64,000 nucleotides of DNA from the NCBI GenBank assembly GCA_022821085.1, contig JAJEEG010000002.1:248001-312000 (forward strand). The letters run 5' to 3'. The position numbers were made by a program, and so were the translations under genes. Below, one piece after another: positions 2,805 to 8,490 of this stretch. This DNA comes from Candidatus Latescibacterota bacterium. GTDB lineage: Bacteria; JAAXHH01. Numbering within the stretch: position 1 is the first letter of the stretch; the number at the start of each line of letters is the position of its first letter. The notes under the pieces were generated by a model. That model ran no database searches, had not been told where the DNA came from, and was given only the letters and a program-made list of their open reading frames with translations.

Positions 2805-5207
2805 ATGATCGGACACTATCTCCTCACCGCCTGGCGGAACATCCTCGCGTCCAGGTCCCACGCCGCGATCAACGTCATCGGGTTCGCCATCGGCATGGCC
2901 TGCTGCCTGGTCATCCTGCTCTACATCCGCGACGAATTGAGCTACGACCGCCATAACTCCCGCGGCGACCGCATCTACCGGGTCGTGACGGACCGTACGG
3001 CGCGTACGCCCGGCGCGCTGGGCGGATTCATCAGGACTCGGCTACCGGAAGCGGAGGAAGTGCTGCGCCTGAGAGCGACGATCGGCACCTGGCTGTTCAC
3101 GACCGAAGACAAGCAGTTCTACGAGCAGGGGGTATACTGGGCCGACGGCAACCTGTTCGACGTATTCGACGTGCCACTCGTCCGGGGAAATCCCGCCACC
3201 GCCCTATCGGCGCCGAACACTATGGTCATCAGCGCGTCCATGGCCCGCAAGTATTTCGGGGACGCCGACCCGATCGGCAAGGCGATCACCGGGGACCACC
3301 AGTTTACCTTCACCATCACCGCTATCATGGAAGATCCTACGGTCTATGCCCATTTCCATCCGGATTTCTACATTTCCATCGCCACCACAACGGGAAGAGG
3401 CGATCCGCTCCGTTTGCTGAGTAACTGGGCGAGTAGCGAGTACTACACCTACCTGCTGCTGGCGCCCGGAGCATCTTCGGAGGAAGTAGGCGGCCTGCTG
3501 CGGCAACGCCTGGAGGAACGCCTGGATACCGACGCCCGCGTCATCGCCTTCACCCATACCTATACGCTTCAGCCCGTTTTCGACATCCATCTTCATTCGC
3601 ACCTGGAATACGAAATGGAGACGAATGGAGACGTGTCCTTCATCTGGATGATGATCGCGGTCGCGGTCTTCATTCTCCTGATAGCCTGCATGAACTTCAC
3701 CAACCTCGCCACCGTCCGTTCCATGGGCAGGGCCAGGGAAATCGGCATGCGCAAAGTCGCCGGCGCGACCCGGGCGCAGATCGTCCGACAGTTCATGGGC
3801 GAAACCATGCTCATCTGTCTCCTGGCCTTCCTGGCGGCCCTGGCCGTCGTCTGGGTGGTTCTTCCCCTTTTTCGCACGCTGACGGGCCATCTGCTGTCTG
3901 TGCCTTCACTGGAGCCGTGGTCCATCCTCGGCGGCGCGGGTATCGTCATCGGAGTGGGCATCGTTGCCGGGAGCTATCCGGCCCTTGTACTGTCCCGGAT
4001 CAGTCCCGCCTCGATCTTCAGGTCCGCATCAGACACCGGCGCGGCCTCCCTGCGGAAAGCACTGGTGGTCGCCCAGTTCTCCATCGCCATTACTATGATG
4101 ATCGGAACCGCGGCCGTATATCAGCAACTCGAGTTCATGCGCAACAAATACCTGGGATTCGACAAGGAACACGTTGTGATCATGCCACACCTCCAGGGCA
4201 TGAACTGGGATATGATCATGGAACGGTTTCCCGGGCATGCGGGCGTTGTCAGCGTAGCCGGGGCAAACTACGTGCCCGGACGCGCCGCGGGACGAGGCAC
4301 GCTGCCGATCTTTCCGGTGCGAAGCGTCGATTCGCCCGCAGAGCCTCCCGTTACCGTGCAGATGCTGATCACGACCGGCGGATACGTGCATACGCTCGGC
4401 CTGAAGTTGCTGGCGGGACGCGATGTTTCTTTCGAACGGGATTTCAAAGAGGTAGAACAGCCGGACGGCAGCACGGCCTACACGTCGGTGGGATGCCTGA
4501 TCAACGAGGAGGCCGCCGGGCGCCTGGGATGGACAAACCCGGCGGAAGCGCTGGACAGGCTCGTGCAAGTTGCAGACCGGCGGATGAGCGTTGTCGGCGT
4601 AGTCGAGGACTTCCATCTCAGGACGCTGCACGACCGGATTGAACCGATGATGATTACCTTCGGCAGCGCCGGCGTGTTCGCCATACGGTTCGTTCCCGGC
4701 GATCCGCAGGTCATCCTTCGGGATCTGGAAGCGATGTGGAAGGCCGTCACGCCGCACATTCCCTTCACCTACTCATTCCTCGACGATGACGTGGAGCGGC
4801 TCTACCGGTCAGACCAGCTTCTCGGCCGGCTCGTTACCCTGTTTGCAGGACTCGCCGTCTTCACCGCCTGCCTCGGCCTCTTCGGCCTGGCGGTATTCAC
4901 GGCGAAGCAGCGTACAAGGGAAATCGGCGTGCGGAAGGTCCTTGGCGCGTCGGTACGCGGGCTCGTCATGCTGCTCTCCCGGGAGTATACCGTCCTCGTG
5001 GCCATCGCCAATGTGATCGCCTGGCCTGCGGCCTACTTCGTTATGCAACAGTGGCTCAGGACGTACGCGTATCACACCGAGATCTCGCTGCTGCTGTTCC
5101 CCGCCGCCGGCCTGCTCGGGCTGTTGATCGCGTGGATCACGGTCAGTTCCCAGACGCTGCAGACCGCCGCCAGGAACCCGGTGGACTCGTTGCGGCGCGA
5201 TCCGTAA
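2805..5207 (+). CDS. Orphan MacB/FtsX-like ABC transporter permease (paralogue 1)
   Basis: Inner-membrane protein of 800 residues with the double FtsX layout. A first membrane helix at about residues 20-42 is followed by a MacB-type periplasmic domain and three helices at about 280-420. Then come a second periplasmic domain and three C-terminal helices at about 675-790. The FtsX signature occurs twice, as REIGMRKVAGAT after helix 2 and REIGVRKVLGAS near the C-terminus. Such permeases normally pair with an ABC ATPase for lipoprotein, peptide or drug export or for mechanotransmission, but no ATPase gene is next to it or anywhere in the window. Three paralogues of the same size lie at 29-39 kb. 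The substrate is unknown. The 3' end, including the stop codon, is tandemly duplicated downstream. Confidence 0.92.
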   Translation: MIGHYLLTAWRNILASRSHAAINVIGFAIGMACCLVILLYIRDELSYDRHNSRGDRIYRVVTDRTARTPGALGGFIRTRLPEAEEVLRLRATIGTWLFTTEDKQFYEQGVYWADGNLFDVFDVPLVRGNPATALSAPNTMVISASMARKYFGDADPIGKAITGDHQFTFTITAIMEDPTVYAHFHPDFYISIATTTGRGDPLRLLSNWASSEYYTYLLLAPGASSEEVGGLLRQRLEERLDTDARVIAFTHTYTLQPVFDIHLHSHLEYEMETNGDVSFIWMMIAVAVFILLIACMNFTNLATVRSMGRAREIGMRKVAGATRAQIVRQFMGETMLICLLAFLAALAVVWVVLPLFRTLTGHLLSVPSLEPWSILGGAGIVIGVGIVAGSYPALVLSRISPASIFRSASDTGAASLRKALVVAQFSIAITMMIGTAAVYQQLEFMRNKYLGFDKEHVVIMPHLQGMNWDMIMERFPGHAGVVSVAGANYVPGRAAGRGTLPIFPVRSVDSPAEPPVTVQMLITTGGYVHTLGLKLLAGRDVSFERDFKEVEQPDGSTAYTSVGCLINEEAAGRLGWTNPAEALDRLVQVADRRMSVVGVVEDFHLRTLHDRIEPMMITFGSAGVFAIRFVPGDPQVILRDLEAMWKAVTPHIPFTYSFLDDDVERLYRSDQLLGRLVTLFAGLAVFTACLGLFGLAVFTAKQRTREIGVRKVLGASVRGLVMLLSREYTVLVAIANVIAWPAAYFVMQQWLRTYAYHTEISLLLFPAAGLLGLLIAWITVSSQTLQTAARNPVDSLRRDP

Positions 5208-5282
5208 GGTCGGACCGGTCGAATCGCTGCGGCGCGATCCGTAAGGTCGGACCGGTCGAATCGCTACGCCGAGATCAGTAGG
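5187..5282. repeat. 37-bp tandem repeat duplicating the permease gene tail
   Basis: Unit 1 (5187-5223) overlaps the last codons and stop of the permease gene. Unit 2 (5224-5260) matches it at 36 of 37 positions. A degenerate third partial unit runs 5261-5282, up to the stop of the convergent SCO gene. Each unit carries a copy of the SLRRDP-stop coding tail (SLRRDQ in the third), although 37 is not a multiple of 3, so the copies lie in different frames. Confidence 0.9.
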
Positions 5283-5924
5283 CTATTCGAAGAGCAGTTT
5301 GACGCCCGCAGCGATGAATTCGGGCGTATCGCTGGGATGGAACCGGTAGCGCAGCCTGCCCTCCTGGTCCACCAGGAACAGCGTGGTCGTGTGGGCGACC
5401 AGGTAGTGTCCGGCTTCGTTCGGCTCCTGCAGCTTGTACAATACGCTGTACTTTTCGGCGACCTCGTCGATTTCCTCCCGCGAACCGGTCAGCCCACGGA
5501 CGTCCACCGTCGAGAAGTACGCCAGGTACTCCCTTAGCTGCTCAGGCGTGTCCCGTGCGGGATCGACCGTGATATAGATCGTCCGCACGATCTGATCGGG
5601 TTGGAGATCGAGCACGTCGTACACGGCCGCCAGCCTGGAGAGCATGAGCGGGCAGGCGTCCGGGCAGAAGGTATATCCGAAGAAGATCAGGAAGGCGTCG
5701 CCGCGGTGCTGCGACAGGTCGAACGGTTCTCCGTCCTGGTCCGTCAGCGTGAAATCGCCGCCGAAGCGTTCGCCGTAGTCCAGGAGTTCGGGAAGGTCGA
5801 TCGGGGGCGGCTGCGGGGTTTCGTCCCGGCAGCCGGGCAAGGTCAACAGCAGCACGGCAACGAAAGCCAGGACTCCCTTTACGTGGATGCTTGATTCTGC
5901 CACCGGATACTCTCCCGGGTTCAT
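5283..5924 (-). CDS. SCO1/SenC/PrrC-family copper chaperone lipoprotein
   Basis: Thioredoxin-fold lipoprotein that helps load the CuA site of cytochrome c oxidase. The N-terminus has a hydrophobic stretch and a lipobox ending at Cys32 (LTLPGC), so the protein should be anchored outside the inner membrane. The copper ligands of the family are in place: CPDAC with Cys87 and Cys91, and His178 in the segment YLVAHTTT. Length (213 residues) is normal. The ATG at 5924 overlaps the stop of the upstream cytochrome c-PCuAC gene by 4 bases (ATGA), which fixes the start and suggests translational coupling. Both products would act on the same oxidase. Confidence 0.93.
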   Translation of the reverse strand: MNPGEYPVAESSIHVKGVLAFVAVLLLTLPGCRDETPQPPPIDLPELLDYGERFGGDFTLTDQDGEPFDLSQHRGDAFLIFFGYTFCPDACPLMLSRLAAVYDVLDLQPDQIVRTIYITVDPARDTPEQLREYLAYFSTVDVRGLTGSREEIDEVAEKYSVLYKLQEPNEAGHYLVAHTTTLFLVDQEGRLRYRFHPSDTPEFIAAGVKLLFE

Positions 5925-6799
5925 TCGGTCGGCCGCCGGTTCTTCGACACTTCGGCCGTAACGGTTTGGGTCTTCGCGTCCGCGAAGCGCAGTGTCAGGC
6001 TAACCGAATCCCCTTCCGCCAGCGAACGCTTCACGCCAAACAACATGATGTGATTTCCGCCGGGTTCCAGGGCCGCCTCTCCACGCGGCGGGACCGTCAG
6101 GCGTTCGATTTTCTCCATCTCCATCATGTCGTCGACCATCCGCATGGTATGCAGTTCGGTATACTCCGCGGCCGGCGTCTCGACGGCGATCAGTTCCCTG
6201 GACTGGCCCGACCGGTTCATGATCACCAGGTAGGCGGCGGTGACGTCCCTGTTCGGCGGCGTAGCCCGGACCCAGGCGCCGTCGATTTCCAGGTCGTCCG
6301 CCGGCTGAAGCGAGGCCACGTACATGGCGATCTTGAAGCGCTCTTCCTCCTTGATATGGGGAAAGGGCACCATGGACGGGCTGTCGGGCATGCCGTCCGT
6401 GAGCGTGCCTGCGATGGTGACCACGTCGCGGCCGATGCGATAGGCCCCCGGGTCCCGGAAGTCGCGGGGCGGAGGTTTCAGCGTGTAGGAAACCGGTCCG
6501 TCGCCGTGGCCTTCCAGGCCGTGGCACACCGTGCAGCCGTACCGGGAATACAACGCCTTTCCTTCCTGCACAAACTTCTCCGGTATTTCGTGGAAACCGA
6601 TGGTTCCCGGCGTTATCGTACCTTCCACCAACTGGGCCATAAACGCCTGGGCTACGGCTTCTTTATCTTCCGGGTCCACCTCCGGATCAGGCGAGCCGCA
6701 GCCGGCCTGAAGGATCAGCAGCCCGCAGATGACTGACCATCTGCCGCAGAACCCGGAGACCCGGGACGGCGAATACCGTGTCTTTGCCTTCCAGAACAT
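5921..6799 (-). CDS. Lipoprotein fusion: cytochrome c domain + PCuAC copper chaperone
   Basis: A 292-residue lipoprotein with two domains. The lipobox LQAGC ends at Cys34. A class I cytochrome c domain follows at about 55-165, with haem motif CTVCH at 89-93 and a candidate axial Met in the DGMPDSPSM region. A PCuAC (DUF461) domain occupies about 175-285. Its Cu(I) site fits the family pattern exactly: His217, Met228 ten residues on, His250 after another 21, and Met252. PCuAC proteins pass Cu(I) to the CuA centre, working with SCO, whose gene overlaps the 3' end here. The haem domain may supply electrons for the thiol or copper chemistry; that is inference. The only good start is the ATG at 6799, which falls at the predicted transcription start. 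Confidence 0.92.
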   Translation of the reverse strand: MFWKAKTRYSPSRVSGFCGRWSVICGLLILQAGCGSPDPEVDPEDKEAVAQAFMAQLVEGTITPGTIGFHEIPEKFVQEGKALYSRYGCTVCHGLEGHGDGPVSYTLKPPPRDFRDPGAYRIGRDVVTIAGTLTDGMPDSPSMVPFPHIKEEERFKIAMYVASLQPADDLEIDGAWVRATPPNRDVTAAYLVIMNRSGQSRELIAVETPAAEYTELHTMRMVDDMMEMEKIERLTVPPRGEAALEPGGNHIMLFGVKRSLAEGDSVSLTLRFADAKTQTVTAEVSKNRRPTE

Positions 6800-6805
6800 G
6801 GTTTT

Positions 6806-6834
6806 ATCCTATTCGTATTCCAGCTCCCTGTCAA
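6806..6834 (-). promoter_or_regulatory. Sigma70-like promoter for the cytochrome c-PCuAC/SCO pair
   Basis: On the minus strand TTGACA (6834-6829) is followed by a 17-bp spacer and TAGGAT (6811-6806). Transcription would begin about 6-7 bases later, at or next to the ATG at 6799, giving a leaderless or nearly leaderless message. No in-frame ATG or GTG follows before the lipobox. Confidence 0.6.
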
Positions 6835-6974
6835 CGACTACAACTCGCCGGTTTCTCCACGTATTCACGTCGAGCCGTGCTCGTGGACGGCGCGCACGTG
6901 GACGGCGGTGGACGGCGTTGCATCGCGCACGTGAAGCACGCGGTCGCGTGTGTTCCGAATCCCCTGCAATTCAA

Positions 6975-7003
6975 TTGACGATGCATGTGGGGGGGCATAC
7001 ATT
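6975..7003 (+). promoter_or_regulatory. Sigma70-like promoter for the MFS-uxuA operon
   Basis: TTGACG (6975-6980), a 17-bp spacer containing a run of seven G, and TACATT (6998-7003). The expected start near 7010 leaves about 60 bases of leader before the TTG start at 7072. This argues against the longer frame that begins at 6985, inside the promoter. Confidence 0.5.
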
Positions 7004-7071
7004 CCCGTCGTCTTCAACACCTCATCCCGACCACGGCCGGATCGGGCACGAACCGCAACCGGGGAGCCACC

Positions 7072-8490
7072 TTGCGAAGCTTCAGGGAATCGCTGTCGAT
7101 CTACTTCGAGCGCCGCATGGCCCGCATACTGCTGCTCGGGATCATCAGCGGATTCCCCTGGGTGCTCATCGGCAGCTGCCTCAATCTCTGGTTGAAAGAA
7201 GACGGGCTTTCCCGCACGGCCATAGGCTGGGCCAGCCTGATCTTCGGCGTGTATGCCTTCAACTTCCTCTGGGCGCCGCTGATCGACCGCATCCGGTTGC
7301 CGCTGCTGACGGGATGGCTCGGCCACCGGCGGGCCTGGATCGTCGCGCTCCAGGCCGTCATCCTGGCTTGCCTGGTGCTCTGGAGTCTCGCTCAACCGAC
7401 AGCTGACCTCAGCCTGGTCGTAGCCATCGGACTCGTCATCGCCATCGCTTCCTCCACCCAGGACATCGCGATCGACGCGCTGCGCATCGAGCAGATCGGC
7501 ACGTCGGAATCGGAAGCCATGGCCGCCGGCGCGGCCACGGCCGTCGTCGGGTGGTGGACGGGGTTCAAACTCGGCGGCGTGATCGCCCTGGAGACCGCGC
7601 AGGCCCTGCAGAACGCCGGCGTCGAAGACTACTGGCAGACCACCTTTCTCTTTCTCGGGGCGGTGGTCATACTCTGCAACATCGGCCTCGCCTTCGTTCG
7701 GGAGTCCACCGCCGCCGATCGCATCGCGGCACAGGCCGAGGACGACGAACGCATCGTCTCCGGCCTGGCGCTGCCGAGTACATTCGGACGCGTCGTCGCC
7801 TGGTTCGCCGGTACCGTGGCCAATCCGTTGACGAGCTTCTTCCGGCGCAACGGATTCGCCATCGCCGCCGCCGTGCTCGGATTCGTATTCCTGTTCAAGA
7901 TCGGCGAAGCGTTCCTGGGCCGCATGTCCCTCATCTTTTACAGGGAGATCGGATTTACCCTGTCTGACATCGCCCTCTATTCCAAGGGGCTGGGATGGAT
8001 CGTCACCGTGGCCTTCACCGTGCTGGGCGGTTTCTTCGCCATCCGGGTCGGACTGGTGCCGGCCATGTTCGCGGCAGGGATCGCCATGGCGGCCACCAAT
8101 CTGTTGTTCGCCACCCTGGCCTGGACCGGCAAGTCCGAGTTGATGTTCGCGACCGCGGTCGTGGCGGACGATATTACGGGCGCCTTCGCGACAGTCATAT
8201 TCGTCGCCTTTATCTCGATGCTCGTCGACCGGACCTATACGGCCACGCAATACGCGTTGCTGGCTTCGATCGGAACGGCGGGACGAACCCTATTCGCGGC
8301 GTCCTCCGGCGCGATGGTCGACGGACTCGATGGCGACTGGGGAACCTTTTTCATCATTACGGCGTTGATGGTGATCCCTTCTCTCGCATGCCTCTGGGCC
8401 ATCCGGACCAAGCTGAGGGACCTGCTCGCCGGCAAGCGCGTACGGATTTTCGGCAAGACCATGCAGGAAGAACCCGAAGAAGCGACCTGA
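7072..8490 (+). CDS. AmpG-like (PAT family) MFS transporter
   Basis: Integral inner-membrane carrier of 472 residues with about 12 helices. The start ILLLGIISGFPWVLIGSCLN, followed by a LWAPLIDR segment, is characteristic of the AmpG/PAT branch of the major facilitator superfamily, whose known members import muropeptides or acetyl-CoA. I chose the TTG at 7072 because GGGGAG lies 7 bases upstream and a promoter ends near 7003; an ATG at 7117 is the alternative. The mannonate dehydratase gene begins 23 bases after the stop, so the pair probably forms an operon and the cargo may be a uronic acid or an oligosaccharide containing one. That cargo is inferred from context only. Confidence 0.85.
   Translation: MRSFRESLSIYFERRMARILLLGIISGFPWVLIGSCLNLWLKEDGLSRTAIGWASLIFGVYAFNFLWAPLIDRIRLPLLTGWLGHRRAWIVALQAVILACLVLWSLAQPTADLSLVVAIGLVIAIASSTQDIAIDALRIEQIGTSESEAMAAGAATAVVGWWTGFKLGGVIALETAQALQNAGVEDYWQTTFLFLGAVVILCNIGLAFVRESTAADRIAAQAEDDERIVSGLALPSTFGRVVAWFAGTVANPLTSFFRRNGFAIAAAVLGFVFLFKIGEAFLGRMSLIFYREIGFTLSDIALYSKGLGWIVTVAFTVLGGFFAIRVGLVPAMFAAGIAMAATNLLFATLAWTGKSELMFATAVVADDITGAFATVIFVAFISMLVDRTYTATQYALLASIGTAGRTLFAASSGAMVDGLDGDWGTFFIITALMVIPSLACLWAIRTKLRDLLAGKRVRIFGKTMQEEPEEAT

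Follow-up and report, generated by a model that had tools for sequence, protein, structure and literature searches.

A predicted cytochrome c-PCuAC fusion lipoprotein encoded with SCO, probably from a leaderless mRNA, in a Candidatus Latescibacterota bacterium

We analysed a window of 64,000 nucleotides from a Candidatus Latescibacterota bacterium (contig JAJEEG010000002.1, positions 248,001 to 312,000 of the forward strand), in which a gene on the reverse strand (5921..6799 (-)) encodes a predicted lipoprotein of 292 amino acids that joins a cytochrome c to a PCuAC domain. Both domains lie in this one ORF above their Pfam cut-offs, as the preliminary description had proposed: Cytochrom_C (PF00034) covers residues 77-164 (32.9 bits, cut-off 21.3) and PCuAC (PF04314) residues 172-280 (5960..6286 (-); 129 bits, cut-off 29.4). 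The haem c attachment motif CTVCH (residues 89-93, 6521..6535 (-)) falls within the Cytochrom_C match, and M143 in SPSMVPF (6371..6373 (-)), probably an axial haem ligand, is retained in all 11 cytochrome c sequences of the genus. The PCuAC copper motif follows the H-x10-M-x21-H-x-M rule to the residue, again as claimed earlier (H217-x10-M228-x21-H250-x-M252). Among solved structures matched by sequence, the nearest to the PCuAC half are PCuAC proteins (1x9l, E 6.4e-20) and the best for the cytochrome half is a cytochrome (6h5l, E 7.6e-18), followed by a weaker match to the cytochrome subunit 6lod_E (6.8e-4), which we take to be an alternative complex III (ACIII) entry. The AlphaFold model gave pLDDT block means of 86-98 over residues 171-290, the PCuAC part, and of about 29-71 over residues 71-170, the haem part, where the alignment is shallow and the haem is absent from the model; the whole fusion has a mean pLDDT of 66.4 and a pTM of 0.52 (30 sequences). 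The haem part was thus modelled with low confidence, and the model supports no particular placement of haem relative to copper. The predicted lipobox LQAGC, recognised by eye, puts the Cys34 codon at 6698..6700 (-); the Gly at -1 and the Cys are present, and the -3 position is atypical and variable among relatives. From these motifs we infer that the protein is lipidated and binds copper.

The ORF directly downstream encodes a SCO lipoprotein (SCO1/SenC, PF02630; 141.3 bits, cut-off 22.8), which bears out the linkage of the fusion to SCO. Numbered from an ATG at 5924, C87 and C91 form its copper motif CPDAC and H178 is likely to be the third ligand. This ATG overlaps the end of the fusion gene by ATGA; the overlap noted in the preliminary description is thus present in the window, yet SCO probably does not start there. 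In G001, the closest relative (fusion 92% identical), the frame from the overlapping ATG hits TAA after 5 codons, so that SCO there must start at the GTG equivalent to window position 5903. GGGAG precedes this GTG by 8 nt in the window, and we consider the GTG the more likely start, which gives a SCO gene of 5283..5903 (-) from the Pfam match and the comparison with the relative, with the ATG at 5924 as the alternative. In G004, fusion and SCO do overlap by ATGA; the coupling is close in other genomes too, and its form is variable. In the SCO export region of G002 (L008), units resembling GLVTLVGLATLT are repeated in a row; this stretch is shorter in the close relative G008 (L006). Next to SCO in the window, a 37-bp tandem repeat of 2.8 copies (5178-5280) lies at the 3′ end of a convergent ABC permease gene, whose last codons and stop the copies repeat; inspection by eye of the corresponding site in five relatives revealed no such repeat.

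We searched 59 genomes for the fusion protein; 12 of them, counting the window's own, belong to the genus. The fused form was found in four of these 12 (G000, G001, G004 and G005) and a split form with adjacent genes in seven (G002, G003, G006, G007, G008, G010 and G011), while G009, which is 87% complete, had no match to the fusion protein. In the split genomes of the genus, a signal peptide and a lipobox are predicted for cytochrome c and again for PCuAC, SCO comes next, and the gene order cytochrome c, PCuAC, SCO is identical to that of the fused genomes. The same gene order with two separate lipoproteins occurs in G015, a genome of the same taxonomic order and another family. In two genomes of the same family as the window, G012 and G013, PCuAC is its own lipoprotein followed by SCO, and no such cytochrome lies within the sequence fetched around the pair. 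The preliminary description had raised the case of relatives with separate domains in another order; the domains are indeed separate in the seven genus members and in G015, and the order is unchanged. The split genes in the genus and in G015 place the association of cytochrome c, PCuAC and SCO before the fusion, and, as most relatives have separate proteins, the physical fusion is not essential. Hence, these are known parts in a new arrangement, and one genus shows both the joined and the separate forms.

Alignment with the split relatives located the fusion junction at CAGCCG (Q165-P166, 6302..6307 (-)), where the end of the cytochrome runs into what was the N-terminus of mature PCuAC. The split cytochrome ends in ...MYVASLQP(S/P).., followed by a tail and a stop, and split PCuAC carries QPADD or close variants right after its lipobox Cys. 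The fused genomes read ...MYVASLQP-ADDLEI or SDDLEI, the junction residues QPADD being those found just past the lipobox Cys of split PCuAC. In the DNA of the split genomes, CAGCCG(nnn)GCGGACG stands at the cytochrome end and CAGCCGGCGGACG at the PCuAC start, with some variation between genomes, and the fused forms are 116 or 146 nt shorter. Since both repeats are in the same codon phase, one deletion between them suffices to fuse the genes in frame, and the junction looks like such a deletion between short direct repeats rather than an insertion. The ancestor would have had two adjacent lipoprotein genes, from which the deletion would have taken out the cytochrome stop codon together with the PCuAC signal peptide and lipobox, leaving PCuAC anchored through the lipid anchor of the cytochrome. 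A literature search on gene fusion by repeat deletion returned nothing relevant.

The change thus appears to have run from split to fused. The opposite course, in which insertion of a stop and a second signal peptide split an originally fused gene, would fit a PCuAC tree that intermixes fused and split rows and a PCuAC signal peptide in G011 that differs from that of the other split genomes. We regard it as very improbable, however, as G015, in another family of the same order, is split, the same-family genomes G012 and G013 have PCuAC as a separate lipoprotein, and a repeat deletion takes one step whereas an insertion would less easily supply a functional export signal. How often the deletion took place is a separate matter, and the trees do not establish that it happened just once. 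The tree of the concatenated operon has a branch (76/88) that sets the four fused rows apart, and the SCO part is silent on this grouping (0.48; 0.375). Taken by itself, PCuAC rejects it (p-AU 0.0068 unrooted, 0.0063 with an outgroup), the rooted cytochrome c part rejects it weakly (0.033), the outgroup of the rooted trees being very distant, and in a COX1 tree of 10 rows, which excludes G004, G010 and G011, the three fused rows tested do not group (p 0.00016). The trees taken together do not point to one clean event, and these bacteria may have recombined or undergone the fusion more than once.

The fusion is rare among the genomes sampled. A PF04314 profile search matched 37 of 384 genomes at 40 places, all of whose loci were fetched, and 70 of 301 genomes of another phylum, from which 30 loci were fetched as those with the best score or the longest frame, the remaining frames being at most 229 aa; the two samples overlap slightly and represent Pseudomonadota unsystematically. 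Among the fetched loci of both samples, PCuAC is joined to CxxCH only in the four genus members. Outside the genus we counted 133 loci, many of them with only about 1.5 kb of flank, and 131 of these have a PCuAC ORF by phmmer. Of these 131, SCO lies near PCuAC on the same strand in 45, a cytochrome of the fusion's kind lies near it in two (L012, which is G015, and L160), and the same frame as PCuAC contains a cytochrome in none and SCO in three. A count by motif alone recognised PCuAC at only 23 of 83 loci and was dropped for the phmmer count. The shared frames of SCO and PCuAC, at L204 (G673), L208 (G582) and L209 (G494), come from another phylum and join parts of this copper module in a different way; in L204 and L208 the translations have SCO preceding PCuAC. 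No cytochrome c-PCuAC fusion was found in the largely open-access literature searched.

Two known PCuAC systems come close to the fusion. The PCuAC and SCO pair that serves CuA in Thermus and Bradyrhizobium, as described in PMC6696091 and PMC9145763, likewise has an H(M)X10MX21HXM PCuAC adjoining a CXXXC...H SCO, the host genome also encoding a CuA oxidase, whereas here PCuAC is joined to haem c and anchored by the predicted lipobox of that joint protein. The DUF1775(YcnI)-PCuAC fusions of proteobacteria also place PCuAC in a two-domain protein (PMC8424229), but there the partner is the copper-binding DUF1775 and here it is a haem domain; Pfam detected no DUF1775 in the fusion protein.

Upstream of the fusion gene, a promoter scan identified a -35 hexamer TTGACA (6829..6834 (-)) and, 17 nt after it, a -10 hexamer TAGGAT (6806..6811 (-)) that ends 6 nt before the ATG at 6799. 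The scan of 5000-7200 gave 2 promoter-like sites, where shuffled sequence gave 0.4 on average, with no second site on the strand of the fusion. The other one is a divergent TTGACG-17-TACATT at 6975-7003 (+), within a block conserved across the genus; as it overlaps ATG 6985 of a listed MFS ORF, translation of MFS probably begins downstream of this ATG. Across the 11 genomes of the genus that have the fusion gene or its split counterpart, all columns of TTGACA (6/6) and TAGGAT (6/6) are invariant, as are the 7/7 columns of GTAGTCG, the 7 bases directly preceding the -35. The spacer, constantly 17 nt long, is invariant in 3/17 columns, the 6 bases preceding the ATG in 3/6 and the 18 columns further upstream in 2/18. 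The difference between hexamers (12/12) and spacer (3/17) has a Fisher p of 1e-5; at the rate of fourfold-degenerate sites in the same genes (28/116 invariant), 12/12 would arise with a chance of 4e-8, assuming independent columns. For the GTAGTCG block, a genome-wide count gave 3 copies of TAGTCNTTGACA and 1 of a control, which showed no regulon behind the block. In G015 the -35 and a preceding TTAGTCC are recognisable, and no TANNNT stands just before the ATG.

This conserved geometry argues for transcription starting here, probably at the A of ATG 6799. With a start at the ATG or within a base or two of it, the operon mRNA would be leaderless for its first gene, as had been proposed, and in all 11 genus members a conserved -10 lies about 6 nt before the start codon. 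The earlier statement that no downstream ATG or GTG precedes the lipobox also holds and extends to TTG, none of the three being in frame between 6799 and Cys34. The -10 hexamer allows a dual reading: TAGGAT contains AGGA 7 nt from the ATG, a Shine-Dalgarno spacing inside the genome's own peak at gaps of 5-12, and AGGA could serve a longer transcript from further upstream, if any. That the mRNA is not leaderless at all, AGGA being the Shine-Dalgarno of a transcript begun upstream, seems unlikely to us, given that 11/11 genomes share TTGACA at a constant 17 nt as well as the T, A and T beyond AGGA while the spacer diverges, and that the scan of 5000-7200 detected no other promoter-like site on this strand.

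We surveyed start signals over 464 kb with 351 called genes, in which Shine-Dalgarno motifs peak strongly at gaps of 5-12 and are the main start type in the genome. TANNNT at a gap of 6 was found at 8 of 499 candidate ATGs in the 464 kb (1.2 expected) and at 5 of 422 in G008 (0.4 expected), several of the matches being without a -35. The pattern TTGACA-N16-18-TANNNT-N0-30-ATG had 122 matches in the genome compared to 8 for the reversed pattern. The excess of ATG distances of 4-8 nt is modest (26/100 against 16 expected, p 0.013; 87 strings among the matches listed, a set that omits strings repeating the same promoter with a nearer ATG because the script counts every ATG). With Shine-Dalgarno starts dominating, a genome-wide leaderless habit is not supported. 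Leaderless genes of Deinococcus-Thermus likewise have TANNNT a few bases before the ATG, and about one third of D. radiodurans genes are leaderless with an adjacent -10, according to PMC12340547; here, by comparison, such genes are a small minority, and the fusion promoter has a full TTGACA -35.

The 3.75-Mb genome encodes one PCuAC, two SCO and one COX2, and this sole COX2 carries a CuA motif and a haem c domain (caa3-type). At L174 (G000:C1:2583000-2602000), ACIII genes, the second SCO, COX2, COX1, COX3 and COX4 form one run, in which all labels other than the COX2 and SCO matches were assigned by eye. SCO and PCuAC cooperate to fill CuA, with a division of labour that depends on the organism, as PMC9145763 and PMC6696091 report. 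From family membership, the fusion and SCO are likely to load copper into the CuA of this caa3-type oxidase: a lipid-anchored haem c and PCuAC Cu(I) chaperone would be made together with a SCO thiol/copper protein, as a periplasmic copper-loading unit for the cell's only CuA-bearing subunit II. Copper delivery to CuA by this unit is what the family matches suggest, and with the second SCO lying beside the oxidase genes, it may not be the sole route. The caa3 subunit II also joins haem c to a copper-related periplasmic domain, although there the copper site is the CuA centre of the enzyme and the haem is C-terminal, whereas the fusion has a chaperone copper site and an N-terminal haem. Building on the observed domains, fused and split states, junction and promoter geometry, we consider the whole explanation, a CuA copper-loading unit with a deletion-born fusion and a leaderless operon mRNA, to be quite probable. 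The best-supported new results are the comparison of fused and split genomes, with its legible junction, and the conserved promoter.

The role of the haem is a more tentative part of it. The domain might be unrelated to copper, an electron carrier from ACIII to caa3 that a neutral deletion joined to PCuAC; we see this as possible, if somewhat doubtful. The genome has an ACIII-caa3 operon, the cytochrome matches 6lod_E weakly (besides 6h5l), and such cytochromes are scarce beside PCuAC outside the genus. On the other hand, cytochrome c, PCuAC and SCO stand in this order in every one of the 11 genus members with a match and again in another family, and this points to a joint function that predates the fusion. 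Alternatively, in the sense of the redox-assisted copper delivery suggested in the preliminary description, the haem could be a built-in reductant that takes electrons from the respiratory chain and holds the PCuAC copper as Cu(I) or passes them to SCO, an idea we hold to be speculative and rather unlikely. If true, CuA assembly would be coupled to respiratory electron flow, and the fusion would make this coupling intramolecular, kept in part of one genus.

A literature search found no paper on leaderless mRNA in the host phylum, and the locus offers a clean leaderless promoter, as predicted from sequence, in such a phylum. The electron supply for Cu(I) and for the reduced cysteines in CuA assembly varies among bacteria. 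A haem protein encoded with a copper chaperone, or joined to it, is a candidate electron source that can be tested, and in the genus fused and separate forms occur side by side, a natural comparison in which the joining is still legible at the junction.
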